57,845 bases of DNA from NCBI GenBank assembly GCA_934565775.1, contig CAKTIN010000003.1, positions 1 through 57,845 of the forward strand. The letters are read 5' to 3'. The notes under the pieces are model-generated. The model made no database searches, was not told where the DNA came from, and worked only from the letters and a program-made list of their open reading frames with translations. Positions within the stretch are counted from its first letter, which is position 1; every line of letters begins with the position of its first letter. The position numbers were made by a program, and so were the translations under genes. This document shows, in pieces, positions 15,181 through 57,845 of this stretch. The DNA comes from an uncultured Oscillospiraceae bacterium (lineage in GTDB: Bacteria; Bacillota; Clostridia; Oscillospirales; Oscillospiraceae).

Positions 15181-15190
15181 GGAGGAAACC

Positions 15191-15568: not shown

Positions 15569-16140
15569 AGCTGCACCTGATTCGACACGGTATGACGGAG
15601 GGGAACCTCCGCCGCCTGTATTACGGAAGCGCCGACCTCCCCCTGCTGCCGGAGGGGGAAGAGGAGCTGCGCCAGCGCCGGGAAAAGGGCGGCTATCCCG
15701 CCGCGCCCCGGTACTACACCAGCGGAATGCTCCGCACGGAGCAGACCCTCCGCTGCCTGTACGGGGAGGTTCCCTTTACGCCGCTGCCGGGGATGCGGGA
15801 GACTAATTTCGGCATTTTTGAAATGAAAACCTATGAAGAAATCAAGGATTGGCCGGAATATCAGCACTGGATTGAGGATATTGCAAAGAACCCCATTCCG
15901 GGAGGAGAGAGCGCCCCGGAGGTCTATGCCCGGGCTGTTGCCGCGCTGAAGCCCCTGCTGGAGGCAGGGGAGGACGCGGTTGTGATTACCCATGGGGGCG
16001 TGATCAGCGGACTGATGGACCTGTGGTTTCCGGGGCCGGAAAAGAATTTCTACCGCTGGGCTCCGAAGCCGGGCACCGGCTATACCGTAACCTTTGCGGG
16101 GCAAACGCCCCGATCCTGGGAAAAGCTGCCAAAAGAATAA
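15565..16140 (+). CDS. cobC: Histidine phosphatase, probable alpha-ribazole phosphatase CobC
   Basis: 191 residues. Starts MKLHLIRHGMTEGN with the RHG phosphatase motif (His8). YTSGMLRTEQTL, MRETNFGIFE and VVITHGGVISGLM complete the histidine-phosphatase pattern. The operon position after cobT, cobU and cobS supports alpha-ribazole-5'-phosphate dephosphorylation; by fold alone it could be any phosphoglycerate-mutase-like enzyme. ATGA overlap with the preceding gene. Confidence 0.88.
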   Translation: MKLHLIRHGMTEGNLRRLYYGSADLPLLPEGEEELRQRREKGGYPAAPRYYTSGMLRTEQTLRCLYGEVPFTPLPGMRETNFGIFEMKTYEEIKDWPEYQHWIEDIAKNPIPGGESAPEVYARAVAALKPLLEAGEDAVVITHGGVISGLMDLWFPGPEKNFYRWAPKPGTGYTVTFAGQTPRSWEKLPKE

Positions 16141-18690: not shown

Positions 18691-18702
18691 CTCTAAACCA
18701 GA

Positions 18703-18900
18703 TACCCCACTTTGGCCGTGCACGCCCATTTATAACCTGCACAGATGGCAGGTGGGTTGCCGCTCTAAACCTTAGCTGCTTCCAACTTCCACCGCATCTC
18801 AAAGGAGCGGCGGGAGGCCTGCAATCCAGCATAGAAGCTTTGCGTCCCGAAGATAAGATGTGGGTTTAAAAGAGCGCGTCACGCACCAAGCAGGGCAAGG
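18703..18900 (-). ncRNA. ssrS: Probable 6S RNA (SsrS)
   Basis: This fills most of the roughly 400 bp gene-free stretch 18509-18904. On the minus strand the two ends pair in a long closing stem (5' arm 18880-18897, 3' arm 18703-18720) with single-base bulges. Inside is a large asymmetric bubble (AACCCACAUCUUAUCUUC on the 5' side; CGGCAACCCACCUGCC on the 3' side with a small ACCUGC/GCAGGU hairpin). A terminal stem-loop (CCGCCGC/GCGGUGG) closes it. Closing stem, central bubble and apical arm with a total near 200 nt is the 6S architecture that binds housekeeping RNA polymerase. The family assignment is by structure and memory of Firmicutes examples. A c-di-GMP-I riboswitch was considered and rejected. 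Confidence 0.62.
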
Positions 18901-22270: not shown

Positions 22271-23161
22271 ATGATCTGGATTTCTGACCAATGGAAGGAC
22301 TATGAGGTTCTGGACGCCACAGACGGTGAGCGCCTGGAGCGGTGGGGGAAGTATTACCTGGTGCGCCCGGACCCCCAGGTGATCTGGAGCACTCCTCACG
22401 ATGCGCCGGAGTGGAAAAAGTATGACGCCCGGTATATCCGTTCCGCCACCGGCGGCGGGCACTGGTCGGACCACCATCTGCCGGAGCGCTGGCAGGTGTC
22501 TTACGGTGGATACCTGACCTTTAACGTAAAGCCCATGAATTTCAAGCATACCGGCGTTTTTCCGGAGCAGGCCGCCAACTGGGACTTTATCCGGGAGAAG
22601 GTCGCCTCTGCCGGCCGGCCGGTGAAGGTGCTGAATCTGTTCGCCTACTCCGGCGGCGCGACCCTGGCGGCTGCGGCCGGGGGTGCGGAGGTCTGGCACG
22701 TGGACGCGGCCAAGGGAATGGTCGCCTGGGCGAAGGAAAATGCCCAGGCCTCCGGCCTGGCGGACCGGCCGATCCACTGGATTGTGGACGACTGCGGGAA
22801 GTTTATCCAGCGGGAGATTCGCCGGGGCCGCCGGTACGACGGGATCATCATGGATCCGCCCAGCTACGGCCGGGGTCCTTCCGGTGAGATCTGGAAGATG
22901 GAGACCAGCTTTTATCCGTTCTTGCAGTCGGTTTTGCAGGTGCTCTCCGACAACCCCCTGTTCGTAATCATTAACTCTTATACCACCGGCCTTGCCCCCT
23001 CTGCGGTGGGGTATGTCTCCGATACCGTCTTTGGCGGAAAATTCGGCGGCCATACCCGGTGCGGGGAGCTGGGGCTGCCGGTCAAAAGCTCCGGCCTGAT
23101 GTTGCCCTGCGGGGCGGCCGGCCGCTGGACTCCCGATGCGGGAAAGGAAGAAACAGATTGA
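22271..23161 (+). CDS. Class I SAM-dependent methyltransferase, RlmI/RlmK-like
   Basis: 296 residues. The SAM-binding loop VLNLFAYSGGATLAAAAGGAE, acidic end of strand 2 (VWHVDAAKGMV) and catalytic-type motif IIMDPPSYGRGP match the rRNA cytosine methyltransferase group. The PUA domain of full RlmI is absent, and the N-terminus is a short strand-rich segment. The target RNA or other substrate is unknown. RBS AAGGAGAGG. The stop overlaps the TTG start of ecfA1. Confidence 0.82.
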   Translation: MIWISDQWKDYEVLDATDGERLERWGKYYLVRPDPQVIWSTPHDAPEWKKYDARYIRSATGGGHWSDHHLPERWQVSYGGYLTFNVKPMNFKHTGVFPEQAANWDFIREKVASAGRPVKVLNLFAYSGGATLAAAAGGAEVWHVDAAKGMVAWAKENAQASGLADRPIHWIVDDCGKFIQREIRRGRRYDGIIMDPPSYGRGPSGEIWKMETSFYPFLQSVLQVLSDNPLFVIINSYTTGLAPSAVGYVSDTVFGGKFGGHTRCGELGLPVKSSGLMLPCGAAGRWTPDAGKEETD

Positions 23162-24003
23162 CACAAGCAATTACCGCCAGAGATCTGGCTTATACCTATG
23201 CCGCCGGGGAGGGGGAGATCCCGCTGCCGGTGTTCTCCGGGTTGGACCTGGAGATTGAAGAGGGCTCCTTTGTGGCGGTGCTGGGGCGCAACGGCTGCGG
23301 CAAGTCCACCCTGGCTAAGCACCTGAATGCGATTCTGCTTCCCTCCGGGGGCAGCGTTACCGTATTCGGATTGGACACCCGGCAGGAGGAGAATCTGATC
23401 CCCATTCGCCGCCAGGTCGGTATGGTGTTTCAGAACCCCGATAATCAGATTGTCGCCAATGTGGTGGAGGAGGATGTGGCCTTTGCCCCGGAGAATCTCG
23501 GAATCCCCACGGAGGAGATCCGCCGCAGGGTGGATGAGGCACTGAAGCAGGTGGGGATGTATGAATACCGAGAGCACGCGCCCCATTTGCTCTCCGGCGG
23601 GCAGAAGCAGCGGGTGGCCATTGCGGGCGTGATCGCCATGCGTCCCAAGTGCATCGTCCTGGATGAGCCCACTGCCATGCTGGACCCCCAGGGCAGGCGG
23701 GACGTCATGGAGATTGTGACCCGGCTGAACCGGGAAGAGGGCATCACTGTGGTGCTCATTACCCACCATATGGAGGAGGCCGCGCAGGCCGGGCGGGTGA
23801 TCGTTCTGGACCGGGGAAAAATTGCCCTGGACGGACCTCCCAAAGAGGTCTTTTCCCATGTGCAGGTGCTTCACGATCTGGGCCTCCGGGCGCCGGAGAC
23901 GGTGGAGCTCTGCTGGGCGCTGCACGCAGAGGGGTATCCGATGGTGACGGCGCTGTCCGTAGAAGAATGCGCGCAGGCACTTTACAAGGCGGTAAAGGCT
24001 TGA
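23158..24003 (+). CDS. ecfA1: Energy-coupling factor transporter ATPase EcfA1
   Basis: 281 residues from TTG 23158 (overlapping the previous stop, AAAGGAAG upstream). ITARDLAYTY opens the protein. Walker A is GRNGCGKST, then the Q-loop VFQNPDNQIVANVVEEDVAFAPENLG typical of EcfA, signature LSGGQKQRVAIAG and Walker B CIVLDEPTAMLDP. It forms the shared ECF module with EcfA2 and EcfT and powers vitamin-specific S components encoded elsewhere. A longer reading starting at 23059 is rejected because it lies over the methyltransferase. Confidence 0.95.
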   Translation: MTQAITARDLAYTYAAGEGEIPLPVFSGLDLEIEEGSFVAVLGRNGCGKSTLAKHLNAILLPSGGSVTVFGLDTRQEENLIPIRRQVGMVFQNPDNQIVANVVEEDVAFAPENLGIPTEEIRRRVDEALKQVGMYEYREHAPHLLSGGQKQRVAIAGVIAMRPKCIVLDEPTAMLDPQGRRDVMEIVTRLNREEGITVVLITHHMEEAAQAGRVIVLDRGKIALDGPPKEVFSHVQVLHDLGLRAPETVELCWALHAEGYPMVTALSVEECAQALYKAVKA

Positions 24004-24024
24004 CCGCAGGGCGGAGGAAATAGT

Positions 24025-24882
24025 TTGGAACCGATATTAGAAGTCAAGGATCTTACGCATATTTACAGCAAGGGCACGCCCTTTGAGCATACTGCGATTC
24101 AAAATGCGAATTTTGTCCTGTACCCCGGGGAATTTGTGGGCGTGATCGGGCACACGGGCTCCGGAAAATCGACCCTGATCCAGCATATGAACGGACTGCT
24201 GAATCCGACCCAGGGAGACGTTCTGTTCCGCGGCAAGAGCATTTGGTCGGAAAAGACCTTCACCCGGGAGTGCCGGTTCCATATCGGCCTGGTGTTCCAG
24301 TATCCGGAGTACCAACTCTTTGAGGAGACGGTCTATAAGGATATTGCCTTCGGCCCGGGGAATATGGGCCTGGAGGAGCAGGAGATTCGGCGCCGGGTCC
24401 GGGAGGCGGCCGGGTTTGTGGGCATCACCCCGGAGCAGCTGGAAAAATCTCCCTTTGATCTCTCCGGCGGGCAGAAGCGCCGGGTGGCAATCGCCGGTGT
24501 GATTGCCATGGAGCCGGAGATCCTCATCCTAGACGAGCCCACCGCCGGGCTGGACCCTGCCGGGCGGGCGGAGATTCTGGAAAATATTGAAAGCTATCGC
24601 CGGGCTAAGGGCGCGACGGTGGTTATGGTCAGCCATTCCATGGAGGACGTAGCCCGGCTGTCCGACCGGATGCTGGTGCTGAACCGGGGGACCATCGCCA
24701 TGAGCGGGACGCCTGCGGAGGTGTTCCGGCAAGCGGACCGGCTGTTGGAAATGGGCCTGGATATTCCCCAGGTGACCCGGGTGCTGCTGCGCCTGCGGGA
24801 GCTGGGGCTGCCCGTGGATCCGGCGTGCTATACAGTGGAGCAGGCGGTCTCCGCGCTGAAGGAGGTGGCCCGCCATGCTTAA
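24025..24882 (+). CDS. ecfA2: Energy-coupling factor transporter ATPase EcfA2
   Basis: 285 residues from TTG 24025 with GGAGG 7 nt upstream. Contains the EcfA2 hallmark HIYSKGTPFEHTAIQN, Walker A GHTGSGKST, FQYPEYQLFEETVYKDIAFGP, LSGGQKRRVAIAG and LILDEPTAGLDP. Lies 21 nt after ecfA1 and overlaps ecfT by 8 nt, so the three are co-translated. Confidence 0.96.
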   Translation: MEPILEVKDLTHIYSKGTPFEHTAIQNANFVLYPGEFVGVIGHTGSGKSTLIQHMNGLLNPTQGDVLFRGKSIWSEKTFTRECRFHIGLVFQYPEYQLFEETVYKDIAFGPGNMGLEEQEIRRRVREAAGFVGITPEQLEKSPFDLSGGQKRRVAIAGVIAMEPEILILDEPTAGLDPAGRAEILENIESYRRAKGATVVMVSHSMEDVARLSDRMLVLNRGTIAMSGTPAEVFRQADRLLEMGLDIPQVTRVLLRLRELGLPVDPACYTVEQAVSALKEVARHA

Positions 24883-25681
24883 GGACATTACCCTGGGGCA
24901 GTTTTTCCCCGGGAAGTCTCCCATCCACAAGCTGGACCCCCGGACCAAGCTCCTGGGCCTGATCGGCTATATTGTTGCGCTGTTTACGGCAAAGGGCTGG
25001 GTCGCCTATGGCCTGGTTCTGGCCTTTCTGATTTTTGTGGTGGCGCTGTCCCGGATCTCTCTGAAGGCCATTCTCCACGGGCTGAAGCCCGTGGTATTTA
25101 TCGTCACCTTTACCGGAATTCTGAACCTGTTCCTCACCGGGGGAGAGCACGTCCTGGTGCAGCTCTGGGGGTTGAAGATCACCCTGGAGGGGTTGAAGCA
25201 GGCGATTTTTATGGCCAGCCGAATTTTAATGCTGATTGTCGGCACCTTCCTGATGACCTATACCACCTCGCCCATTGCTCTGACGGACGCGCTGGAGGCG
25301 TTGCTGCACCCGCTGACCTATGTGCGCTTTCCGGTCCACGAGCTGTCTATGATGATGTGCATCGCTCTGCGCTTTATTCCCACTCTGATCGAAGAGACAG
25401 ATAAGATCATTGCCGCCCAGAAGGCGCGGGGCGCGGATTTTGAGACCGGCAGCCTGCTCCATCGGGCCAAGGCTCTGGTGCCGGTGCTGGTGCCGCTGTT
25501 TATCAGCGCCTTCCGGCGGGCAGATGAGCTGGCGGTGGCCATGGAGTGCCGCTGCTATCAGGGCGGCTCCGGCCGAACCAAGCTGAAGGTCCTGCGCTTC
25601 GCCGGGCGGGACTACCTGGCCTTTGCCGCAATGGCGGCCTTGATTGCCGGGACGATTTTACTGAAGGTCTTTGGAATTTAG
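24875..25681 (+). CDS. ecfT: Energy-coupling factor transmembrane subunit EcfT
   Basis: 268 residues. The start MLKDITLGQFFPGKSPIHKLDPRTKL region is the conserved EcfT N-terminus. Five or so membrane spans follow. The coupling motifs appear as AQKARGADF and AMECRCYQGG, variants of the two Ala-Arg-Gly signatures that contact the ATPases. The usual order ecfA1-ecfA2-ecfT-truA of Firmicutes is kept. Confidence 0.95.
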   Translation: MLKDITLGQFFPGKSPIHKLDPRTKLLGLIGYIVALFTAKGWVAYGLVLAFLIFVVALSRISLKAILHGLKPVVFIVTFTGILNLFLTGGEHVLVQLWGLKITLEGLKQAIFMASRILMLIVGTFLMTYTTSPIALTDALEALLHPLTYVRFPVHELSMMMCIALRFIPTLIEETDKIIAAQKARGADFETGSLLHRAKALVPVLVPLFISAFRRADELAVAMECRCYQGGSGRTKLKVLRFAGRDYLAFAAMAALIAGTILLKVFGI

Positions 25682-36016: not shown

Positions 36017-36888
36017 TTCGGGTGCGGGTCCCCGGGACCTCAGCCAATCTTGGCCCCGGTTTTGACTGCTTCGGGATCGCCTGGCAGCTGTATCAGGAGC
36101 TGACCTTTTCCCCCTGCGGTCAATTGGAAATTACCGGCTGCCCGGCGGCCTATCAAAATGCCGGGAATCTGGCCTATGTAGCCTTCTGCCGGACCCTGGA
36201 GGCGAAGGGGATCCCCCTGCCGGAGGGGCTCCGGATTGCGTTTGTCCGTTCGGAAATTCCAATTTCCCGGGGCCTTGGGTCCTCCGCCGCGCTGATCTGC
36301 GCGGGAATCGCAGGAGCGGACGGAATGTACGGCCTGGGGCTGAGCCCTGCGGAGAAGCTTGCTCTGGCGGCCCGGCTTGAAGGGCATCCGGACAATGCGG
36401 CCCCGGCCCTTTTGGGGGGCTTTACCGTCTGCGCCGCCCTGGGCGGGGAGGCGACGGCTGCGGCCTATGGGGTCAGCGGCCGGCTGCACTTTGCCGCAAT
36501 GATCCCGGATTTTGAGCTGAGCACCCGGCGGGCCCGGGCCGCCCTGCCGGAGCAGGTCCCCCTGCGGGACGCCGTGTTCGATCTCTCCCGGGCGGCGCTG
36601 CTGCCTCGGGCCCTGGAACAGGGGGATTGGGCGCTTTTGTCCCGGTGTATGGACGACCGGCTGCATCAGCCCTACCGGTTTCCCCTGATCCCGGGGAGCG
36701 ACCGGGCAATCGCTCTGGCCCGGGAACAGGGAGCCGTGGTGTGCATTTCCGGCGCCGGGCCGACGCTTTTGTGCGTCAGTCCGGAGGAGGGCTTCGCGGC
36801 GGCTCTGGGAGCAGCCCTGAGACCTGTGCTCCCGGGGTGGCAGGTCCGGCGGCTGCTGCCGGACCACTCCGGAACGGTTCTTCTGTAA
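36013..36888 (+). CDS. thrB: Homoserine kinase
   Basis: 291 residues, GHMP kinase fold. MIRVRVPGTSANLGPGFDC, the ATP loop SRGLGSSAALICAGI, HPDNAAPALLGGFTV and ISGAGPTLLCV are all present. Supplies phosphohomoserine to ThrC; the operon order thrC-thrB supports this. Confidence 0.96.
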   Translation: MIRVRVPGTSANLGPGFDCFGIAWQLYQELTFSPCGQLEITGCPAAYQNAGNLAYVAFCRTLEAKGIPLPEGLRIAFVRSEIPISRGLGSSAALICAGIAGADGMYGLGLSPAEKLALAARLEGHPDNAAPALLGGFTVCAALGGEATAAAYGVSGRLHFAAMIPDFELSTRRARAALPEQVPLRDAVFDLSRAALLPRALEQGDWALLSRCMDDRLHQPYRFPLIPGSDRAIALAREQGAVVCISGAGPTLLCVSPEEGFAAALGAALRPVLPGWQVRRLLPDHSGTVLL

Positions 36889-36892
36889 ATCG

Positions 36893-36922
36893 AAAGCGCT
36901 GCCGCCTCCGGCAGCGCTTTTT
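36893..36922 (+). terminator. Terminator after thrB
   Basis: 12-bp perfect stem (36893-36904 with 36909-36920, loop CCTC) ending in TTTTT. Confidence 0.88.
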
Positions 36923-36924
36923 GA

Positions 36925-36953
36925 TTGACGAATGGGGTCGGATTTGCTACAAT
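36925..36953 (+). promoter_or_regulatory. Promoter of larE-larB-larC
   Basis: TTGACG (36925-36930), 17-bp spacer, TACAAT (36948-36953) with a TGC extension; directly after the thrB terminator. Confidence 0.75.
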
Positions 36954-36977
36954 AAAACCCGAAATGAGGTGACGCTT

Positions 36978-37733
36978 TTGGAACTCAAGGATTTTTTTGC
37001 CCAGCATCCGAAGGTCGCGGTCGCTTTTTCCGGCGGGGTGGATTCGGCCTATTTGCTTTACGCCGCCAGGGCCGCCGGAGCGCAGACCATGGCCTATTAT
37101 GTACACTCGCCTTTTCAGCCGGCCTTTGAGCTGGAGGACGCGGAGCGCCTGTGCCGGGAGCTGAACCAGCCTCTGCGGATTCTGGAGGCGGACCCCCTTG
37201 GGGACCCCAGAGTCCGGGCGAACCCCGACAACCGCTGCTATTACTGTAAGCAGACCATTTTCGGCCTGATCCGGCGGGCGGCGGCGGAGGACGGTTATAG
37301 CGTGCTTCTGGACGGCACCAACGCCTCGGACGACGCGGCGGACCGGCCGGGGATGCGCGCTCTGACGGAGCTGGAGGTGCTCTCGCCTCTGCGGCTGTGC
37401 GGCATTACAAAGGCCCAGGTCCGCGCTCTTTCCCGGGAGGCGGGACTGTTCACCTGGGACAAGCCTGCCTATGCCTGCCTGGCGACGCGGATCCCCACAG
37501 GGCAGGAGATCACGGCAGAGGCCCTGCGCCGGGTGGAGCAAGCAGAGACAGCCCTGGCCCGGCTGGGCTTCCGGGATTTCCGGGTGCGGCTGGTGGGCGA
37601 CGCGGCAAAGCTTCAGGTCACCTGCGGGCAGCTGCCAATGGTCCTGGAGCATAGAGAGCAAATTCTGGAGACCCTGTCGCCACTGTTCGGAGCGGTCACA
37701 CTGGACCTCCAGCCCAGAAAGGCGAGTCAATAA
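36978..37733 (+). CDS. larE: LarE, ATP-dependent sulfur transferase of nickel-pincer cofactor synthesis
   Basis: 251 residues from TTG 36978 with GAGGTGA upstream; a longer upstream frame is rejected because it runs over thrB and its terminator. PP-loop FSGGVDSAYLLY, a CYYCKQ pair (Cys87, Cys90) and KPAYACLATRIPTG, whose Cys167 corresponds to the sacrificed or cluster-binding Cys of LarE. It sulfurates the pyridinium bis-carboxylate made by LarB. Whether the enzyme uses one Cys or a 4Fe-4S route cannot be decided by eye. Confidence 0.93.
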   Translation: MELKDFFAQHPKVAVAFSGGVDSAYLLYAARAAGAQTMAYYVHSPFQPAFELEDAERLCRELNQPLRILEADPLGDPRVRANPDNRCYYCKQTIFGLIRRAAAEDGYSVLLDGTNASDDAADRPGMRALTELEVLSPLRLCGITKAQVRALSREAGLFTWDKPAYACLATRIPTGQEITAEALRRVEQAETALARLGFRDFRVRLVGDAAKLQVTCGQLPMVLEHREQILETLSPLFGAVTLDLQPRKASQ

Positions 37734-38489
37734 ATGGAACATATGGATTTGGAGGCGCTTTTGCAGGCGGTAGCCGCAGGGAAGGTCAGCGTGGAGGAGG
37801 CCATGCTGCAAATGAAGCAGCAGCCCTTTGAGGATCTGGGCTATGCCAAGGTGGACTTCCACCGGTCCCTGCGCCAGGGCAGCCAGGAGGTCCTTTACGG
37901 CGCGGGAAAGACCCCGGAGCAGATGATCGGAATCCTCAGAGCCATGGGCGCCCGGGATTGCAAAAATATACTGGTGACCCGGCTGAGCCCAGAGGCGGCG
38001 GAGGCCGTAGGGGCGCAGATCGAGCTGGACTATCATAAAGAGGCAAGGCTTGCCGTGGCGTTCCCCGGACCGCACCCCAGCGTCGGTTCAATTGTGATTG
38101 CCACCGGCGGGACCAGCGATATTCCCGTGGCCGAAGAGGCGGCGGTGACGGCGGAGAGCCTGGGGAACCGGGTGACGCGGCTGTATGACGTGGGCGTGGC
38201 CGGAATCCACCGGCTGCTGCAAAATCTGGAGCCCATTATGACGGCCCGGGTGATCATTGCGGTGGCTGGGATGGAGGGGGCTCTGGCCTCCGTGGTGGGA
38301 GGCCTGGCCTCCTGCCCGGTGATCGCCGTGCCCACCAGCGTGGGCTATGGCGCCAGCTTCGGCGGCGTTTCCGCTCTGCTATCTATGCTGAACTCCTGCG
38401 CCTCCGGGGTCAGTGTGGTAAATATCGATAACGGCTTTGGGGCCGGGTTCCTGGCCAGCCGGATCAACCAAATGGAGGGTCTGAAATGA
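37734..38489 (+). CDS. larB: LarB, nickel-pincer cofactor biosynthesis carboxylase/hydrolase
   Basis: 251 residues. MDLEALLQAVAAGKVSVEEA opens, then GYAKVDFHRSLRQG and the PurE-like C-terminal domain (IVIATGGTSDIPVAEEA, VIIAVAGMEGALASVVGG, VPTSVGYGASFGG). It carboxylates and hydrolyses nicotinic acid adenine dinucleotide. The start is directly after the larE stop; ATGA overlap with larC. Confidence 0.94.
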   Translation: MEHMDLEALLQAVAAGKVSVEEAMLQMKQQPFEDLGYAKVDFHRSLRQGSQEVLYGAGKTPEQMIGILRAMGARDCKNILVTRLSPEAAEAVGAQIELDYHKEARLAVAFPGPHPSVGSIVIATGGTSDIPVAEEAAVTAESLGNRVTRLYDVGVAGIHRLLQNLEPIMTARVIIAVAGMEGALASVVGGLASCPVIAVPTSVGYGASFGGVSALLSMLNSCASGVSVVNIDNGFGAGFLASRINQMEGLK

Positions 38490-39691
38490 AAACGCTGTAT
38501 TTGCAGTGCGCCATGGGCGCGGCGGGGGATATGCTGACGGCGGCGCTGTATGAGCTGCTGCCGGATCAGGTGGGATTTTTGAAGGCCATGAACGCCGCCG
38601 GCCTTCCCGGCGTGACCTTTTCTGCGGAAAAAACCCAAAACGGGGGCATTTCCGGGACGCACATCTCCGTCCTGGTTGCCGGGCACGAAGAGCATGAGCA
38701 CGCCGGTGCGCCCCACCATCCCCACCACTTTCACCTTTCCGACCTTTACGCCCTTATGGAGGGGACCGGCCTGCCAGAGGCGGTGATCGCCCGGGGCAAG
38801 CGGGTTTATGACCGGATCGCCCGGGCGGAGGCCCAGGTCCACGGCGCGCCGGTGGAGGAGGTCCATTTCCACGAGGTGGGCGCGCTGGACGCGGTGGCGG
38901 ATGTGCTGGGAGCGTGCTACGCGCTGTATCTGCTGGGCCCGGACCGGGTGGTGGTATCTCCGGTCCATGTGGGCTACGGTACTGTGCGCTGCGCCCATGG
39001 GCTCCTGCCGGTCCCGGCTCCGGCTACCGCCCGGCTCCTGCTGGGTGTCCCGACCTATGCCGGAGAAATCGAGGGGGAGCTGTGCACGCCCACCGGCGCC
39101 GCTCTGCTGACGGAATTTGCCAACTGCTATGGGCAAATGCCGCCTATGACGGTCTCCAGCATCGGCATCGGCCTGGGGAGGAAGGAATTTGTGGCCCCCA
39201 ATTGCCTGCGGGCATTCCTTGGACAGGAACAGGGGCAGCAGGGGCAGATCACGGAGCTGGTGTGCAACCTGGATGATATGACCCCAGAGGCCCTGGCATA
39301 TGCCTGCCGGGCGATTCTGGCCGGGGGCGCGCTGGATGTGTATACGGTGCCGGGTACCATGAAAAAGGGCCGCCCGGGGTGGGTCCTGACGGTCCTGTGC
39401 CAGCCCGAGCGGGTAGGGGAGCTGCTGCCCCTGATCTTCCAGGAGACCTCCAGCAACGGGGTCCGCGCCCGGCAGTGCGGGAAGTATTTCCTCCGCCCCG
39501 AGACGCAGACGGTCTCCACCGCCTTTGGCCCGGTCCGGCGAAAGACTGCCGCCGGTTATGGGGCCGTGCATCAAAAGCCGGAGTTTGAGGACGTGGCCCG
39601 GCTGTCGGAAAGTGCGGGCGTTCCCTTTGAAACGGTCTGGCAACAGGCCATGCAGGGAGAGACGGTAGAGGCAGGTTCTTCCAATTTTTAA
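38486..39691 (+). CDS. larC: LarC, nickel-insertion protein (single open frame)
   Basis: 401 residues. MKTLYLQCAMGAAGDMLTAAL, a His-rich stretch (HEEHEHAGAPHHPHHFH) likely to bind nickel, VEEVHFHEVGALDAVADVLG and CNLDDMTPEALAYACRAIL near the C-terminal LarC2 domain. In some lactobacilli LarC1/LarC2 are joined by frameshifting; here one uninterrupted frame covers both. No lactate racemase (LarA) is in the window, so the client is encoded elsewhere. Confidence 0.94.
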   Translation: MKTLYLQCAMGAAGDMLTAALYELLPDQVGFLKAMNAAGLPGVTFSAEKTQNGGISGTHISVLVAGHEEHEHAGAPHHPHHFHLSDLYALMEGTGLPEAVIARGKRVYDRIARAEAQVHGAPVEEVHFHEVGALDAVADVLGACYALYLLGPDRVVVSPVHVGYGTVRCAHGLLPVPAPATARLLLGVPTYAGEIEGELCTPTGAALLTEFANCYGQMPPMTVSSIGIGLGRKEFVAPNCLRAFLGQEQGQQGQITELVCNLDDMTPEALAYACRAILAGGALDVYTVPGTMKKGRPGWVLTVLCQPERVGELLPLIFQETSSNGVRARQCGKYFLRPETQTVSTAFGPVRRKTAAGYGAVHQKPEFEDVARLSESAGVPFETVWQQAMQGETVEAGSSNF

Positions 39692-50722: not shown

Positions 50723-51484
50723 TTATAAAAATCCCTCGTCCTTCAAAAAGCGAACGGAGGGCTCTGCGTGCATAGTCTCGATGGTATAGGTAGCCGCCGG
50801 GCAGAGGGCCTCCGCCTGGCGAATCAGCTCCGATACGGGCAGCACGCCGTCCCCCAGATTCTGGTGCAGGTCCCAGTCGCCGTCGTTATTGTGCAAATGC
50901 AGATGAGACAGCCAGGGGGCCATGGCCCGAATCCAGTCGGCGACCGGGGCCTTGGACAGCCGGGTGTTGGCATGGCCAATATCCAGGCACAGGCGCAGCC
51001 GGGGGTCGTTTACGTCTCTGGCAATGGAAACGGGAATCTCCGCCGTATCCTCCATCACATTCTCCAGAAGGATGGTCATGCCATCGGGCAGCTTCGGCAG
51101 GAGCTGCTTCCAGAATGCCACGGACTGCTCGATCATCCAGACGGGATAGTACACCATGGGAATATACCCCGTATGGATGACCATGCGGTGGATTCCCAAG
51201 GACTCCGCCTGCGCCGCCGCCTGTAAATAGCGGCGTTCCGTGACCTCCCGGACCAGCGGATCGATGGCCGCCGGGCAGAGCTCCGCAAAGGGACCGTGGA
51301 ACACAAACCGGCTGGCATACTGCATTTTTTTCCGGACAATGGGCGCATATTCCGGCAAATCCCGATCCAGATTGGAGGCAGTGCAGAATTCTGCCAGCTC
51401 CAGGCCCAGGCCGTTATCCCGGGCCAGCGGGCAGGCGTCGTCTGCAATGGTGGAGAGGTAAAGCCGCTGCCGAAACTCACTCAT
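50723..51484 (-). CDS. Sugar phosphate isomerase/epimerase (xylose-isomerase-like TIM barrel)
   Basis: 253 residues from ATG 51484, which overlaps the stop of the transporter gene by 4 nt. LARDNGLGLELAEFCTA, SRFVFHGPFAELCP, GIHRMVIHTGYIPMV, ILLENVMEDTAEIP, RLCLDIGHANTRLS and LSHLHLHNNDGDWDLHQNLGDG are the AP_endonuc_2 fold metal-site motifs. The substrate is unknown. It is the last gene of the ECF-fusion operon, which is an unusual partner. Confidence 0.85.
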   Translation of the reverse strand: MSEFRQRLYLSTIADDACPLARDNGLGLELAEFCTASNLDRDLPEYAPIVRKKMQYASRFVFHGPFAELCPAAIDPLVREVTERRYLQAAAQAESLGIHRMVIHTGYIPMVYYPVWMIEQSVAFWKQLLPKLPDGMTILLENVMEDTAEIPVSIARDVNDPRLRLCLDIGHANTRLSKAPVADWIRAMAPWLSHLHLHNNDGDWDLHQNLGDGVLPVSELIRQAEALCPAATYTIETMHAEPSVRFLKDEGFL

Positions 51485-54084
51485 AGGGCGCCTCCCAATA
51501 GGCCGTATTTTACCTTGACCCGCTCCAGCTTTTCCAGCAGGGGCTCCGACAGGAACCAGAGAAACAGAGCTGTAGCACCGGCGTGGATCAGATCTGCCGG
51601 GACACCGGTGAGATAAGCGGTCAGAAACATCTGCCAATTGGGGGCAGACTGATACATCAGCACGGAAGCCGGGTTCATGATTCCGCCGTAAACGAGCAGC
51701 ACGACCGCGCCGCCGAATACGGCCAGAGACAGCCGACCGGTCCCCAGGAGCCCGGTGCGGGACAGGAGCCCGGTAAGCAGGCCAATCAGGCCCATGGCGA
51801 ACATTTGCCACGGGGTCCAGGGCCCCTGTCCGAAAAGCATATTGGAAACGAACATGGACATGGCCCCCATCAGGAAGCCGGTCTCCCCGCCGAAGGCCAC
51901 CGCAGCTATAATGACCAGTGCCGCCACCGGCTTGAACCCGGGAAGCGCGAAGAACACGGCCCGCCCGGCCACCGCCAGGGCGCAGAGCACGGCCAGAAGC
52001 ACCAGCTCCCGCGCCTGGGGCCGCCGCCCCTCAAAGAGCAGGAAGAAGGGCAGCATGGTCTCTACGAGAATTAGAATCGACAAAAGCAGATACTTTTTTT
52101 CTCCGAAATACCGGCTCCCAAGGAAGAGCGTCAGCGGGATTGCCAGAAGGCTGAGCCCGGCAGCAAGCCACACCTTGGGCCGAATTGGGCTTCGCCGGCG
52201 CTTGGCGGGGCGAACGCCCTGACCGGCGCAGACGCTTAGAAGAAACAGAGCCAGGCAGGCAAATAGCGCCCCGTAGACGCCATAGAGCAGGCCCCGATTG
52301 CCGCCAGACTGAAACAGGCCGGTCAGATTCAGCCCATAAATGGAATAGAGCGCCAGCGCCAGAGTTCCAGCGCCGGAAAATAGACCGGCCAGCTTCCGCC
52401 AGAGGGGCAGAGGCTTCTTTTTTTGCGGAGGCGGTGGGGGCGGCGGCGCCGGTTGGTCCGGCGGCTGCTGCTTTTTGGGCGGGAGCTGCCCGCCGCAGGC
52501 GGTAATCACATCCTCCGCTGTCACCGCCTCCGGCAGCAGATGCCGGGCCATGCGGTTTGCTGCGGTGGTATAGAAGCGCTTGCCTGAGAAGAAGGTCTGG
52601 GGGTCGCCCTGGGCCGTGATCCCGCCGTCAAAAAACAGACAGCAGCGGTCGGCATAGGCGGCGCAGAACTCCACGTCATGGCTTACCATGACAATGCCCA
52701 CGCCGGAGGCTTTCACCTGTGCCAGAATCCCGGCAAAGGTCTCCTTGAAGGCGGCATCCAGGCCCTTAGTGGGCTCATCCAGGAGCAGAAGCCTCGGCTC
52801 GGTGAGAAGGACCTTCGCCAGGGCCGCCCGCTGCTGCTCACCGCCGGACAGGTCATAGGGATGCCGGTCCAAAAGACCGCCCAGGCCGCATAGGCCGCAG
52901 ATCCGGTTCCAGACCTCCGGGGCGGGGGACAGCTCCTCCAGCTCCTGGCGCAGGGTGCTTCGGGCAAACAGGGACCGGGGGTTCTGCGGCAGAAATGCAA
53001 ACTGCGTTTCCTGGGTGCGGATCGTGCCGCGATAGGGCTTCCTGGCCCCGGAAAGCACCGCAAGGGTCGTGGTCTTTCCTGCGCCGTTGCCTCCCAGAAT
53101 GCAGACCAGCTCCCCGGAATAGACGGAAAAATTCAGCCCCTTCAGAATATCCCGGCCGTCCTTTTCATACCGGAACCAGACCTCCTTCGCCTCCAGGACC
53201 GGCGCGCCGCCGGGCGCAAAGGACGGGCGGCGGGGGACGGGAGACAGCGGGTGGTTCTGGGCATATTGGGACAGAAACTGCCGCCCCTGGCCCACGGTCA
53301 TGGGGCAGGGCAGGGACGTTTTCACGCTGGCCCAGACGCGCATGGGGGCTGGCATGGCCCGAAGCATGGGGCTCCCGGCGGCTCGCAGCGCGGCAAAGGC
53401 CTCCTCAGGGGTCCCATCACAGAGGAGCTTTCCCTCCTCCATGAAAATGGCCCGGGTGGCCATGGGCATGGCTTCCTCCAGGCGGTGCTCCGTCAGCAGG
53501 ACGGTCGTCCCCAGCTCCCGGTTGATCTTTCCCACGGTTGCCAGGAAATCAGCGGCGGCGATGGGGTCCAGCTGACTGGTGGGCTCATCCAGCAGGAGCA
53601 CCTCCGGCTGCATGACCATAACGGAGGCCAGATTCAGCAGCTGCTTCTGCCCGCCGGACAGCTCCGAGACATCCTTATAAAACCAGCTCTCCATGCCGAA
53701 AAAGCAGGCCATTTCCGACACCCGGCCCCGGATGGTATCCGTATCCAGCCCCAGGCTCTCCAGGCCGAAGGCCAGCTCGTGCCAAACCTTGTCCGTTACG
53801 ATCTGGCTGTCCGGGTCCTGCTGCACAAAGCCGATGCACTCCGCCTGCGCCCGCAGATCAAGGGCGTCCAGCGGGGCGCCCCGGAAGAGCAGAGTCCCGC
53901 TCCGCGCCCCGTGGGGGGCAAGGGCAGGCTTCAGCTGCCGCAGAAGCGTGGATTTTCCGCAGCCGGAGGGGCCGGCCAGAAGGACGCATTCCCCGGGAAA
54001 TAGGGACAGGGTCACGCCGCTCAGGGCTGGGTGTTCCTGCCCCGGGTAGGTAAAGCTCAGGTCGCGGAGGGTAAAGAGTTCCAT
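51481..54084 (-). CDS. Fused ECF transporter: ATPase-ATPase-substrate-binding membrane domain
   Basis: 867 residues. ATPase 1 has GPSGCGKST (about 38-46), FVQQDPDSQIVTDKVWHELAF and ELSGGQKQLLNL. ATPase 2 has GGNGAGKTT (about 331), DLSGGEQQRAAL and LLLDEPTKGLDA. A Pro-rich linker (about 535-560) leads to a membrane part with about nine spans. Its end is S-component-like (PGFKPVAALVIIAAVAFGGE, GAMSMFVSNMLFGQGPWTPW). This is a stand-alone ECF transporter in which both ATPases and S component are one chain; EcfT is the gene before it. Substrate unknown, corrinoid suggested by the DUF4430 partner. Confidence 0.88.
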   Translation of the reverse strand: MELFTLRDLSFTYPGQEHPALSGVTLSLFPGECVLLAGPSGCGKSTLLRQLKPALAPHGARSGTLLFRGAPLDALDLRAQAECIGFVQQDPDSQIVTDKVWHELAFGLESLGLDTDTIRGRVSEMACFFGMESWFYKDVSELSGGQKQLLNLASVMVMQPEVLLLDEPTSQLDPIAAADFLATVGKINRELGTTVLLTEHRLEEAMPMATRAIFMEEGKLLCDGTPEEAFAALRAAGSPMLRAMPAPMRVWASVKTSLPCPMTVGQGRQFLSQYAQNHPLSPVPRRPSFAPGGAPVLEAKEVWFRYEKDGRDILKGLNFSVYSGELVCILGGNGAGKTTTLAVLSGARKPYRGTIRTQETQFAFLPQNPRSLFARSTLRQELEELSPAPEVWNRICGLCGLGGLLDRHPYDLSGGEQQRAALAKVLLTEPRLLLLDEPTKGLDAAFKETFAGILAQVKASGVGIVMVSHDVEFCAAYADRCCLFFDGGITAQGDPQTFFSGKRFYTTAANRMARHLLPEAVTAEDVITACGGQLPPKKQQPPDQPAPPPPPPPQKKKPLPLWRKLAGLFSGAGTLALALYSIYGLNLTGLFQSGGNRGLLYGVYGALFACLALFLLSVCAGQGVRPAKRRRSPIRPKVWLAAGLSLLAIPLTLFLGSRYFGEKKYLLLSILILVETMLPFFLLFEGRRPQARELVLLAVLCALAVAGRAVFFALPGFKPVAALVIIAAVAFGGETGFLMGAMSMFVSNMLFGQGPWTPWQMFAMGLIGLLTGLLSRTGLLGTGRLSLAVFGGAVVLLVYGGIMNPASVLMYQSAPNWQMFLTAYLTGVPADLIHAGATALFLWFLSEPLLEKLERVKVKYGLLGGAL

Positions 54085-54944
54085 TTTAGATCCTCGCAGA
54101 AATCAAGTATCACAGGGAAAAAGCACAGCAGGCCAAAGGCCCCCTGGGCAAGCAGGGTAAGGGGAGCGGTCAGGTCCCCGGAAATGGTGGGATAGTATTG
54201 AAAGTCCAGGGCTCCCAGGAGCTTTCCGGCCAATACCACGCCGGTCAGCCCCAGGCAGAGACCCAGGCAAAGCCCATCCCGCCGGGTAAAGCGGAAGTTG
54301 TGGAAGGCGGTGCGGCCCTTCAGGCCGTAGCCCCGGCTTTTCATGCTGTCGGCGGTCTGAATGGCGGATTCCAGCGCCCAGGTGACGGTTGCGGAAAAGG
54401 CTGCCATCGCTGCCCGAAGCCGCCGGAGGCGGCCCTTCTCCCCGGGATGCAGTCCGGCTCGGGCCTGGGCGATCTGCTGCATCTGCCGGTGGAAGTGGGG
54501 GACAAACCGCAGGGTCATGGACAGCAGCAGCGAGAGGGCCGGCGCCGCCCGGCCGAAGAGGTAGATGAATTTATCGGAGGTCAGCACCTCGTTGCAGCAG
54601 GCAAACCAGCTGACCACGGCTGCCAGAAGGACCGCAGCAGACGCACCGTAGGCCATGGACTCCAGAGTCAAGGGATTGCCGTTGGGCAGGTACAGAAGGA
54701 TCGTCGCACCCTCATGGCTGAACAAGGGATTCAGAAGCAGCGTCAGCACCAGCAGGGGGAGCAGATAAACAAGCTGAAACCGCAGGGCCTTTGCGCCCTT
54801 CAGGCGAAGGTTATACAAGGCCGCCCCGGCCAGGGACAGGAGCAGGCACACCGGCTGGGTCAGAAACATACTCAGCAGCAGCACCGAGAGAAAAAATTCG
54901 AAGTTGACCAGAGGGTGGCACCCGGAGAAGGCGTCGTTTTTCAT
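54057..54944 (-). CDS. EcfT/CbiQ-like transmembrane subunit of the fused ECF transporter
   Basis: 295 residues from ATG 54944 (ATGA overlap with the DUF4430 gene). Spans about 15-50, 62-82, 100-130 and a C-terminal pair. The coupling helix has LESAIQTADSMKSRGYGLKGRT, the SRG variant of EcfT, and AQARAGLHPGEKGRLRRLRA. Overlaps the fused gene by 28 nt. Distinct from the general EcfT at 24875. Confidence 0.88.
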   Translation of the reverse strand: MKNDAFSGCHPLVNFEFFLSVLLLSMFLTQPVCLLLSLAGAALYNLRLKGAKALRFQLVYLLPLLVLTLLLNPLFSHEGATILLYLPNGNPLTLESMAYGASAAVLLAAVVSWFACCNEVLTSDKFIYLFGRAAPALSLLLSMTLRFVPHFHRQMQQIAQARAGLHPGEKGRLRRLRAAMAAFSATVTWALESAIQTADSMKSRGYGLKGRTAFHNFRFTRRDGLCLGLCLGLTGVVLAGKLLGALDFQYYPTISGDLTAPLTLLAQGAFGLLCFFPVILDFCEDLKWNSLPSAT

Positions 54945-55432
54945 GAGAAATCCCCGCCCCCTACATCCTTGCCCAGGTCCCGGGTATAGGCGAATACCAC
55001 CTGATCCCCGTCGGACAGGGTGTAGCCGGAGCAGCCCAGATTGGGAAACTGCCCGTTCACACTGTAGACCCATCCGGACTGGGGCCCGCAGTCAAACTCA
55101 TACAGGTTGCAGATTCCCTCGATATAGATGGATTTATAGAGATTGGCGTCGGTGTATTCAAAGTGGAGCTTTCGGGCGGTGAGCTCCCGGCGGAGCAGGT
55201 CAAAGACCGTATCGCCCTCATAGGCGGTGACCGGCCCCGTGGAGAGCAGCACGCCGCTTTCCGGGACCAGGCTTCGCTTCTCCGCCTTCAGCTCGTCCAT
55301 GTGCTCCAGCAAAACGTCACAGCGGATCTCCAGGGAGACGGTGATGGGCGCGCCGTGGCCAGCCTCCTTGGCGCAGCCGGCGAAAAGCAGCAGCGCCAGG
55401 AGCGCTGCAATACAGGCAAGAAAACGTTTCAT
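54941..55432 (-). CDS. DUF4430 lipoprotein, candidate substrate-capture protein
   Basis: 163 residues. Signal peptide with lipobox FAGC (Cys20). The domain GDTVFDLLRRELTARKLHFEY, SGWVYSVNGQFPNLGC and GYTLSDGDQVVFAYTRDLG is DUF4430, a fold related to the C-terminal (beta) domain of transcobalamin and intrinsic factor. It is first in the operon with EcfT-like and fused ECF proteins. An external cobamide- or other ligand-capture function is inferred; the family is also found on unrelated surface proteins. Confidence 0.85.
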   Translation of the reverse strand: MKRFLACIAALLALLLFAGCAKEAGHGAPITVSLEIRCDVLLEHMDELKAEKRSLVPESGVLLSTGPVTAYEGDTVFDLLRRELTARKLHFEYTDANLYKSIYIEGICNLYEFDCGPQSGWVYSVNGQFPNLGCSGYTLSDGDQVVFAYTRDLGKDVGGGDFS

Positions 55433-55464
55433 TGTGGACCTCGTTCTGCATAAAATTCCAAATT

Positions 55465-55493
55465 ATTTTATCACGTTTCACCGGGAAAAACAA
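55465..55493 (-). promoter_or_regulatory. Promoter of the DUF4430/ECF operon
   Basis: Minus strand TTGTTT (55488-55493), 17-bp spacer, TAAAAT (55465-55470). The short leader shows no B12 riboswitch. Confidence 0.7.
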
Positions 55494-55506
55494 CCCCGGA
55501 GGACAG

Positions 55507-55534
55507 AAAAGGTCCCCACCCATGGGGCGGGGAC
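55507..55534 (-). terminator. Terminator of the rhomboid-like gene
   Basis: 10-bp stem with one mismatch (55512-55521 with 55525-55534); minus-strand tail CCTTTTCTG. Confidence 0.75.
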
Positions 55535-55539
55535 GAATG

Positions 55540-56412
55540 CTACTGGATATGCACATGGTTGTTGATGTGATCGCTGCAATAGCAGTAATAGCCCTTGCAC
55601 TTGGAGCAATAGCGGAATTCCAGCTCCGGATTGGTCACATCCGTCCGGCCACAGACGGTGCATTTGTGGGTATAGGGGGCCTCGGCCCGGGGGGATGAGG
55701 CGTGTGCCCCGCCGGGGAAGGGAATGGTCTTATTGCGGGGGGAACGCTTCCGGGTCAGATTGACCCGCCAGGAGACCGGCAGCAGGTTGGCAATCTCCTT
55801 TCCAAAGTGCAGGAAGTAATTCAGAAGGGCGATCATGGGGACCAGATAGGTGAAGGAGGTGGGCGCGGTCAGCAGGCCGGAAAGCACGCTCCAGGCGGAG
55901 AGCCCCAACTCGATCAGACCCAGCCACCGGGCCTTGACCGGTATAAACCAGAAAAGCAGAAAGCGGGTCTCCGGATATAAGGTGGCATAGGCCAGGAAAA
56001 GGCTCAGATTGATATACTCCACGCTCATAGGGATCCGGAAAAGGAGCCCGACCAGGTCGGAAAGCAAAACGCCGGAAAAATAATAGAGATTAAATCGCAG
56101 CCGTCCCCAGGTGGCCTCCAGCGAATTGCCCAGGCTGTAATACACCAGAAGCAGCAGCGCTCCCAGCAGCAGACCTGTGGCATTCACGCCGCACAGCACC
56201 GTAAAGATGTAGGTGAACAGCCGCCAGACCTGCCCCTTTAGGATCAGCGCCGGGGAAAAGGCCAGGGCGCTGTAGGTAAGCCCGCTGGGGTCCATAGTAG
56301 AGATCAGAAAAACGATCAGATTGCCCACGGCGATCCACAGCATGAGGTTGGGCACGCCCCGATTGCGATTGCGCTGGCAGAAGGCTGCATATTTGCGCCG
56401 AAGATTCTTCAA
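55540..56412 (-). CDS. Rhomboid-like membrane protein with C-terminal zinc ribbon, probably not a protease
   Basis: 290 residues from TTG 56412 (AAAGGAG 9 nt upstream). Six-span rhomboid pattern (WRLFTYIFT, YYSLGNSLEATWGRLRFNLYYF). The usual catalytic GxSG is replaced by INLSLFLAYATLYPE and no clear catalytic His is seen, so it is likely a pseudo-rhomboid. The tail has CTVCGRTDV ... YCSKCKGYYCYCSDHINNH, a zinc-ribbon-like Cys/His cluster. Function unknown; a substrate-binding or membrane-chaperone role is possible. Confidence 0.75.
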   Translation of the reverse strand: MKNLRRKYAAFCQRNRNRGVPNLMLWIAVGNLIVFLISTMDPSGLTYSALAFSPALILKGQVWRLFTYIFTVLCGVNATGLLLGALLLLVYYSLGNSLEATWGRLRFNLYYFSGVLLSDLVGLLFRIPMSVEYINLSLFLAYATLYPETRFLLFWFIPVKARWLGLIELGLSAWSVLSGLLTAPTSFTYLVPMIALLNYFLHFGKEIANLLPVSWRVNLTRKRSPRNKTIPFPGGAHASSPRAEAPYTHKCTVCGRTDVTNPELEFRYCSKCKGYYCYCSDHINNHVHIQ

Positions 56413-56459
56413 GAGAGGTCGCTCCTTTCCGGCCGGAGCCGCAGGAAAATGATAGTCCT

Positions 56460-56488
56460 ATTCTACCCGATTTTCAGGAAAAAGTCTA
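56460..56488 (-). promoter_or_regulatory. Promoter of the rhomboid-like gene
   Basis: Minus strand TAGACT (56483-56488), 17-bp spacer, TAGAAT (56460-56465). Confidence 0.5.
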
Positions 56489-56559
56489 CCTGGATTTCAT
56501 GAATTTTCCAAGAACCGCTGGCAATCGGGAAAATAGTCGAAAAAGATAGGAGTTTTCTC

Positions 56560-56587
56560 TTGACATTCGGCGAATTATCGCTATAAT
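56560..56587 (+). promoter_or_regulatory. Promoter of metK
   Basis: Consensus TTGACA (56560-56565), 16-bp spacer, TATAAT (56582-56587), about 20 nt before the riboswitch. Confidence 0.85.
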
Positions 56588-56607
56588 AGTTATGCAATTG
56601 AATAGAA

Positions 56608-56699
56608 CCTTATCAAGAGTGGCGGAGGGAACGGCCCGATGAAGCCCGGCAACCTGTTAGTTTCAAGGTGCTAATTCCGGCGTATGACGAAAGATGAGG
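56608..56699 (+). ncRNA. SAM-I (S-box) riboswitch
   Basis: P1 CCTTATC pairs with GATGAGG (56693-56699). Conserved AAGAGTGGCGGAGGGA, GGCCCGATGAAGCCCGGCAA (pseudoknot loop and kink-turn side), AACC and AAGGTGCTAATTCC are all present. A terminator follows at 56712, so binding of SAM should stop transcription before metK. Confidence 0.96.
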
Positions 56700-56711
56700 A
56701 TGCTGTGTTTG

Positions 56712-56742
56712 AAGCGTTCCGTCTGTGCGGAATGCTTTTTTT
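56712..56742 (+). terminator. Riboswitch-controlled terminator
   Basis: 10-bp stem with one G-T pair (56712-56721 with 56728-56737), then TTTTTT. The alternative antiterminator would use the 3' strand of P1. Confidence 0.88.
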
Positions 56743-56774
56743 GTTGTATGGAATGTTCTGAAAGGATTAAAAAT

Positions 56775-57845
56775 ATGGAAAAAAGACTGTTTACTTCCGA
56801 GTGCGTGACCCAAGGCCATCCCGACAAGGTGGCCGACTCTATCTCCGATGCCATTTTGGACGCCTGCCTGGCCCAGGATCCCGGCTCCCGGGTGGCCTGT
56901 GAGACCATGGTGACCACGGATTACTGCTGCATCTGCGGCGAGATCACCACCAAGGCCCAGGTGGACTATGCCGCCGTGGCCCGGGAGACCATCCGCCGCA
57001 TCGGCTACACCCACCCCGAGGACGGCTTCGCCGCAGATACGGTGAAGATCGAGTGCCGGATCCACACCCAGTCTCCGGACATTGCCATGGGCACCAACGA
57101 CGCCGTGGGCGGTGCAGGGGACCAGGGCATGATGTTCGGCGGCGCCTGCAACCAGACCAAGGAGCTGATGCCCCTGCCCGCCGCCATGGCCCGGGCGCTG
57201 ACCACCCAGCTCACCCGCTGCATCCGGGAGAACGACAAGCTTCGCCCCGACGGCAAGACTCAGGTGACCGTGGAATTTGACGAGGCCGGGAAGCCCGTGG
57301 GGATCGACGCCGTGGTGGTTTCCGTGCAGCACACCGAGGACTTTGCCATGGAGGAGCTGCGGACCTATATCCGGGAGAATGTGATCGCGCCGGTGCTGGA
57401 GCGGTATGGCTTCCGTATGAGCCAGGTGGGCGCGGTCTATATCAATCCCACCGGGAAGTTTGTTGTGGGCGGCCCGGCGGGCGACACCGGTCTGACCGGC
57501 CGGAAGATCATTGTGGATACCTACGGCGGCTATTTCTCCCACGGCGGCGGCGCTTTCTCCGGAAAGGACCCCACGAAGGTGGACCGCAGCGCGGCCTATA
57601 TGGCCCGCTACATGGCCAAGAATGTGGTGGCTGCCGGTCTGGCGGACCGGGTGCAGGTGCAGCTGGCCTATGCCATCGGCGTGGCCCATCCGGTCTCCGT
57701 CCGGGTGGATACCTACGGCACCGGAAAGATCCGCGACGAAAAGCTGACGGACCTCCTGCGCCGGGTGTTTGATCTGACCCCCGCCGGAATCATTCGGACC
57801 CTGGACCTCCGGCGGCCGATCTATGAAGAGACGGCCTCCCGCGGC
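56775..57845 (+). CDS. metK: S-adenosylmethionine synthetase MetK (3' end outside window)
   Basis: 357 codons visible, frame open to the window edge. [26 protein letters not shown] region, [49 protein letters not shown] and [19 protein letters not shown] are the MetK signatures. RBS AAAGGA. Makes SAM from methionine and ATP and is feedback-controlled by the riboswitch in its leader. Confidence 0.97.

Follow-up and report, generated by a model that had tools for sequence, protein, structure and literature searches.

What does a TIM-barrel enzyme do at the end of an operon that otherwise encodes a transporter? The question is raised by four genes on contig CAKTIN010000003.1, a stretch of 57,845 nucleotides from an uncultured Oscillospiraceae bacterium, which we refer to as a whole as the window. 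Read as open reading frames (ORFs), the four genes all lie on the minus strand and run from 55432 to 50723. The first encodes a lipoprotein of 163 residues with one DUF4430 (transcobalamin beta-type) domain (54941-55432), and the second a transmembrane coupling subunit of the energy-coupling factor (ECF) transporters, EcfT, of the CbiQ type (295 residues, 54057-54944; Pfam CbiQ, E = 1.6e-7). The third is a chain of 867 residues that joins two ATPases, EcfA and EcfA', through a Pro-rich linker to a CbrT-like S component (51481-54084), and the last a 253-residue TIM barrel of the AP-endonuclease-2 superfamily (50723-51484; Pfam AP_endonuc_2, E = 1.5e-18), a candidate cobamide phosphodiesterase. 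The EcfT gene and the TIM-barrel gene each start within an ATGA overlap with the preceding gene (the former at 54944), and the EcfT gene and the fused chain overlap by 28 nucleotides. ORFs, Pfam and translation thus bear out the layout that the original prediction had read from the letters of the DNA: four overlapping genes, a one-chain ATPase-ATPase-S transporter with its Pro-rich linker, and an ATGA-coupled TIM barrel. We conclude, with a probability of roughly 0.7, that this operon is a unit for the capture, import and remodelling of corrinoids.

In the mechanism that we propose, the lipoprotein would serve as a free-standing domain of the transcobalamin beta type, tethered on the outside of the membrane, that binds corrinoids and delivers them to the S domain related to CbrT. 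Import would then be driven by ATP through the dedicated EcfT and the pair of ATPases that share a chain with the S domain. Once in the cytoplasm, the imported cobamides would have their nucleotide loop opened by the TIM barrel, a putative metal-dependent phosphodiesterase, probably yielding cobinamide phosphate, and CobU, CobS, CobT and CobC would rebuild the loop with the lower ligand preferred by the cell. We computed the gene order, the predicted fold of the lipoprotein, the kinship between the S domain and CbrT, the conservation of the metal site in the TIM-barrel family and, at related loci, the presence of cobalamin riboswitches and the linkage to cobTUSC.

The TIM-barrel family, which is without assigned function, usually lies beside genes for B12 salvage. 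We analyzed 80 loci, the best 80 of 201 that encode a relative of the window protein, chosen by the TIM-barrel protein alone and partly close kin of one another. Nine metal ligands (His, Asp and Glu) of the type found in endonuclease IV and in CbiR are identical in the window protein, in all 80 relatives and in 17 of 17 CbiR proteins. CbiR of Akkermansia muciniphila is described as a cobamide remodelling phosphodiesterase that cleaves intact cobamides, and it resembles the window enzyme in its superfamily and its metal ligands and the relatives of that enzyme in its linkage to genes of cobamide biosynthesis (PMC7733943). The TIM barrel is likely to be an enzyme of cobamide salvage, and opening of the nucleotide loop as a phosphodiesterase is its most plausible activity. 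Cleavage of the cobamide phosphodiester is the reaction that we consider probable, given the genomic context and the conserved active site.

The nine ligands, together with an HxH pair of the family (H196 and H198) that is also present in all 17 CbiR proteins, would fit a strongly diverged CbiR orthologue, in which case the enzyme would be new only in its company. CbiR (NF041277) is indeed the best NCBIfam model for the window protein, and for none of the 11 family members tested does another model score higher. The window protein scores 26.2 bits and the ten relatives 29.9 to 55.5 bits, against a cut-off of 105. Identity with CbiR was our first idea, which we dropped because the score lies far below the cut-off, because other AP-endonuclease-2 proteins outscore the window protein on the same model (L087, 84 bits), and because the tree separates the two groups. 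This tree comprised the window protein, relatives from 25 of the 80 loci, 10 of the 17 CbiR proteins, 12 proteins from loci L083-L100 and three proteins of E. coli; L082, L084-L086, L090, L092 and L093, several of which had unclear frames, were left out. Both the TIM-barrel family and CbiR come out as supported clades (99/95 and 98/91, respectively). A single clade of both is rejected by the approximately unbiased (AU) test when the long-branch relative L098 is omitted (p = 0.013) and is not rejected when it is included (p = 0.17), and long branches weaken the test in both directions. The solved structures closest in fold to the window protein, TTHB071 (3ayt/3ayv) and MJ1311 (3wqo), do not bear the name CbiR. 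Compared with CbiR, the family forms a clade of its own in our tree, scores below the CbiR cut-off and lies directly behind ECF genes in 26 of its 80 loci. That the enzyme is merely a diverged CbiR orthologue seems to us rather unlikely. TTHB071 was also considered as a gene of the Thermus cobalamin cluster; it lies about 5 kb past that cluster on pTT27 (L178, 22973-23737), with unrelated genes between and surE adjoining, and its position is suggestive only.

In 35 genomes that encode the TIM-barrel protein, those of 35 of the 80 loci, we found no CbiR match over the cut-off and a single CbiZ, although many of these are metagenome-assembled genomes of unstated completeness and such absences are weak. 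With CbiR matches over the cut-off missing from 35 of 35 and CbiZ from 34 of 35, the family becomes a concrete candidate for cobamide remodelling in Oscillospiraceae and their kin. Tentatively, these bacteria may harbor a second, independently recruited lineage of AP-endonuclease-2 cobamide-remodelling phosphodiesterases, standing in for CbiR and CbiZ and partly encoded in one operon with a transcobalamin-type lipoprotein and a one-chain ECF importer, such that the lower ligand would be exchanged on entry.

The neighborhood of the gene in related genomes, mainly of Oscillospiraceae and other Clostridia, points to cobamide salvage. In 59 of the 80 loci, cobT follows in the same orientation and starts at most 400 nucleotides downstream, and in one more it starts at 459 nucleotides; it is divergent in 8 (12 to 1,226 nucleotides), convergent in 1 and absent from the stretch in 11. 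Overall, 70 loci contain at least one cob gene, and ECF genes end no more than 200 nucleotides before the start of the TIM-barrel gene in 26. Cob genes adjoin the set of importer and TIM-barrel genes in many related loci: L036, for example, carries the fused-chain operon, an extra ORF, the TIM-barrel gene and cobT-U-S-C, all on one strand. In the RefSeq genome of Vescimonas fastidiosa, a gene annotated 'TIM barrel protein' overlaps cobT by 4 nucleotides and is followed by the cobU and cobS genes. The exact four-gene order of the window is repeated in L035 and L044, and its first three genes recur widely, which indicates that the arrangement is not due to chance. Two tandem copies of the TIM-barrel gene lie in L060 (9929-11663), where no cob gene was recognized within the 12-kb stretch.

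In genome content, the family co-occurs with the S domain and CobT somewhat more often than expected. In a separate sample of 391 genomes of the class, 12 have a strong match to the TIM-barrel protein (> 160 bits; four weaker ones of 110 to 127 bits were dropped), including G001, the center of the sample. The S domain occurs in 8 of the 12 as compared to 131 of all 391 (p = 0.018, hypergeometric test), and CobT in 9 as compared to 153 (p = 0.012), with kinship controlled in neither comparison. A protein with a B12-binding domain is present in 28 of the 35 TIM-bearing genomes.

Instead of the intact cobamide, the enzyme could have a substrate elsewhere in cobamide salvage, for instance alpha-ribazole or a different lower-ligand nucleotide produced by CobT, or else a product of breakdown, next to an importer that does carry corrinoids. 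This would agree with the tie to cobT being commoner than that to the importer (59 and 26 of 80 loci, respectively). It would also agree with CbiC and CbiD occurring together in 13 of the 35 genomes (both are absent from the other 22), which may make corrinoids de novo, and with a relative in L192, of 126.8 bits to the family profile, that adjoins cobyric acid synthase. However, the metal ligands are those of CbiR, whose substrates are intact cobamides, and the gene stands directly behind the importer chain in the window, L035 and L044; we therefore consider a role elsewhere unlikely. For the original prediction, which had asked for conservation of the TIM-barrel gene in the operon, the outcome is mixed: ECF genes do lie directly upstream in the 26 loci, but linkage to cobT is the commoner tie, and the 40 loci selected through the S domain lack the gene within the stretch fetched.

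A sugar-phosphate isomerase or epimerase, co-transcribed by happenstance, is very unlikely. After TTHB071 and MJ1311, ketose epimerases and xylose isomerases make up most of the fold neighbors, and relatives are annotated as 'sugar phosphate isomerase/epimerase' in their sources. The description of the enzyme as sugar-phosphate-isomerase-like therefore holds for its fold, but not for its metal site, which is of the endonuclease IV/CbiR type: while the nine ligands are invariant in the 80 relatives, UlaE keeps four and Hyi five. The sole match among the NCBIfam models of epimerases and isomerases is to fructoselysine 3-epimerase (NF007360), at 21.5 of the 305 bits of its cut-off, and the frequent linkage to cobT is hard to explain for a passenger gene.

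The transporter has all parts of an ECF importer: besides EcfT and the S component, there are two ABC ATPases, both with intact motifs. Pfam places ABC_tran in two stretches of the fused chain and ECF-ribofla_trS at residues 691-841 (E = 7.9e-12), and the linker, the Walker motifs and the LSGGQ and LSGGE motifs of the ATPases are visible in the translation. The best PDB match of the S domain is ECF-CbrT (6fnp_A), with an E-value of 7.5e-11 for the single sequence and of 4.8e-18 for a 43-row profile. The same profile gives far weaker matches to other solved S components (RibU, 7.6e-6; 4hzu, 1.4e-4), so that the domain goes with CbrT and not with a non-corrinoid family. ECF-CbrT of Lactobacillus delbrueckii (PDB 6FNP), reported in 2018 to transport cobalamin and cobinamide, is the nearest solved relative of the S domain and likewise works with EcfT and two ATPases (PMC5997447). 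It uses an ECF module common to other S components, whereas the operon of the window begins with a DUF4430 lipoprotein, includes an EcfT gene and has its ATPases on the same chain as the S component. CbrUVT gene sets have been recorded in gut surveys (PMC6593275). In addition, a second CbiQ/EcfT-like gene lies between the S gene and the TIM-barrel gene in L009 (9111-9998, confirmed by Pfam) and in L012, L016, L028, L031, L032, L037, L063, L068, L073, L074 and L079.

The one-chain fusion is common in the class: relatives of the S domain occur in 131 of the 391 genomes, and in 59 of these they lie inside an open frame of at least 700 residues. We hand-picked 40 S-selected loci from the 131 genomes and found a DUF4430 ORF in 36 and the ATPase-ATPase-S fusion in 23. 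The latter is not an unbiased rate, since the first 20 loci were taken from the head of the list, which is rich in long frames. Both the fusion and the partnership with the lipoprotein are therefore ordinary for Clostridia. The description of the system as self-contained goes too far, given the wide occurrence of the lipoprotein-EcfT-ATPase-S set in Clostridia without the TIM-barrel gene and the commoner tie of that gene to cobT.

The lipoprotein, whose lipobox ends in FAGC by eye, matches the DUF4430 profile with 65.2 bits (E = 7.2e-18; cut-off 23.8). A sequence search for transcobalamin among solved structures returned chance matches only, and the kinship was seen by fold comparison instead. 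The nearest folds to the AlphaFold2 model of the lipoprotein, whose predicted local distance difference test (pLDDT) score is 91.8, are the beta domains of animal transcobalamin, haptocorrin and intrinsic factor, ahead of other beta-grasp folds. Burroughs and colleagues described in 2007 bacterial operons in which transcobalamin-like SLBB proteins accompany a CbiO-like ATPase and a CbiQ-like permease, and proposed that they scavenge B12 (PMC1796856). Our operon shares with these a surface protein of the transcobalamin beta type beside CbiO/CbiQ-like genes, and the same prediction; the passages considered here mention neither an S component nor a riboswitch or a TIM-barrel gene. Very long DUF4430 proteins (804-1892 residues) are found in L036, L054, L065, L139 and L142; for four of them Pfam indicates anchoring in the S-layer, and those of L065, L139 and L142 sit directly behind cobalamin riboswitches.

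We scanned 49 related loci (859,966 bases) with Rfam, 33 of the 80 TIM-selected ones, mostly with ECF genes, and 16 of the 40 S-selected ones. Overall, 18 cobalamin riboswitches were detected in 15 loci (12 TIM-selected and 3 S-selected). No other riboswitch family was found, and the remaining matches were tRNAs, one 5S rRNA and one T-box leader. The gene after the riboswitch encodes DUF4430 in 10 of the 18 cases, eight by profile at 12 to 315 nucleotides and two by Pfam (L045 and L047). In L012 (plus strand), L032 and L139, the riboswitch is followed by a lipoprotein that leads the ECF genes, and the chain of L139 is fused like that of the window. In L065 it is the S-layer DUF4430 protein that comes after the riboswitch, with the lipoprotein-EcfT-fused-chain set 1.7 kb beyond on the same strand. 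The remaining riboswitches precede a PQQ-repeat protein (L031), other genes or collagen-repeat proteins (directly after 3621-3825 in L009 and 2447-2662 in L028), the last being an unexpected, possibly B12-controlled class.

The CbrT match, the fold of the lipoprotein and the riboswitches support what the original prediction had proposed, a lipid-anchored, transcobalamin-like capture protein that feeds a corrinoid ECF importer, and the imported substrate is very probably a corrinoid. That the system carries cobalt or another vitamin, with DUF4430 binding that ligand, is highly improbable. Several ligands may be bound within the transcobalamin-like superfamily, according to a reviewer's remark and the authors' reply (PMC1796856), and the Pfam name of the S domain refers to the riboflavin family, but the E-value for CbrT is twelve orders of magnitude lower than that for RibU, cobalamin is the only riboswitch family found at the related loci, and cob genes neighbor the importer and TIM-barrel set in many loci.

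Besides the low score on the CbiR model and the separation in the tree, several observations weigh against a unit that captures, imports and remodels corrinoids. The whole window contains no cobalamin riboswitch at the gathering threshold, nor does 54500-57845 at E-values up to 5. Of the scanned loci, 34 of 49 have none, and 8 of the 18 riboswitches point away from the ECF genes (L009, L012 on the minus strand, L016, L024, L031, L045, L047 and L075). Within the stretches fetched, none of the 40 S-selected loci contains the TIM-barrel gene or a cob gene. In the wider class, most of the 14 loci examined outside the group that match the family profile have other recognized neighbors or none, such as glycerol genes (L182), pcrA-ligA (L183) and a sensor kinase (L188). 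Finally, the cobT and the cobU-, cobS- and cobC-like genes of the window lie about 35 kb from the operon on the opposite strand (12813-16140, plus).

These four genes, from which the original prediction had guessed at corrinoids, a guess now well supported, are the proposed partners in rebuilding the nucleotide loop. Only CobT passes its NCBIfam cut-off (12813-13913; TIGR03160, 400.6 bits, cut-off 319.3). The others are best matches below theirs: a cobU-like kinase/guanylyltransferase (13910-14443; NF004469, E = 1.2e-22, 80.4 of 161 bits), a cobS-like cobamide synthase (14380-15180; best cobS models 8.1e-19 and 4.2e-18) and a cobC-like alpha-ribazole phosphatase (15400-16140; TIGR03162, E = 2.8e-32, 111.6 of 162.9 bits), the last two with frames taken from the first start codon.

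Among more distant loci, the relative in L184 is near a DUF4430 protein and that in L182 has S and ATPase genes about 6 kb away, and a Paracoccus relative neighbors a phosphodiesterase and a HAD hydrolase, not cob genes. By phmmer with the window proteins, no cob gene was found around the high-scoring CbiR of Bacillota in L102 or in the 17-kb stretch (L101) around L098.

Upstream of the operon, a weakly rhomboid-like membrane ORF with a cysteine-rich tail, below the Pfam cut-off (55540-56412, minus), ends 107 nucleotides before the lipoprotein gene on the same strand, and the operon transcript may therefore begin before it. A SAM riboswitch lies beyond it on the opposite strand (56607-56700, plus; 77.9 bits). 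Elsewhere, the window contains a second ECF module with separate EcfA1- and EcfA2-type genes, both over their cut-offs (23059-25681, plus), followed by an ORF of 268 residues that received no name at the same threshold. It also contains consecutive LarE, LarB and LarC genes for the nickel-pincer cofactor (36627-39691, plus) and a 6S RNA (18700-18899, minus).

The proposed role of the TIM-barrel family in cobamide salvage appears to be new, while operons of the transcobalamin-like/CbiO/CbiQ type go back to a prediction of 2007 and the proof for CbrT dates from 2018. Among the matches listed in open-licence PMC texts, none joins DUF4430, a CbrT-like ECF importer and a CbiR-like enzyme.

Which of the B12-dependent enzymes of an organism can function is influenced by the lower ligand of its cobamides (see PMC7733943). 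The operon, in which a lipoprotein of only 163 residues has a CbrT-like importer as its neighbor, offers a direct test case for the 2007 proposal that the B12-binding domain of animal transcobalamin has working bacterial counterparts.

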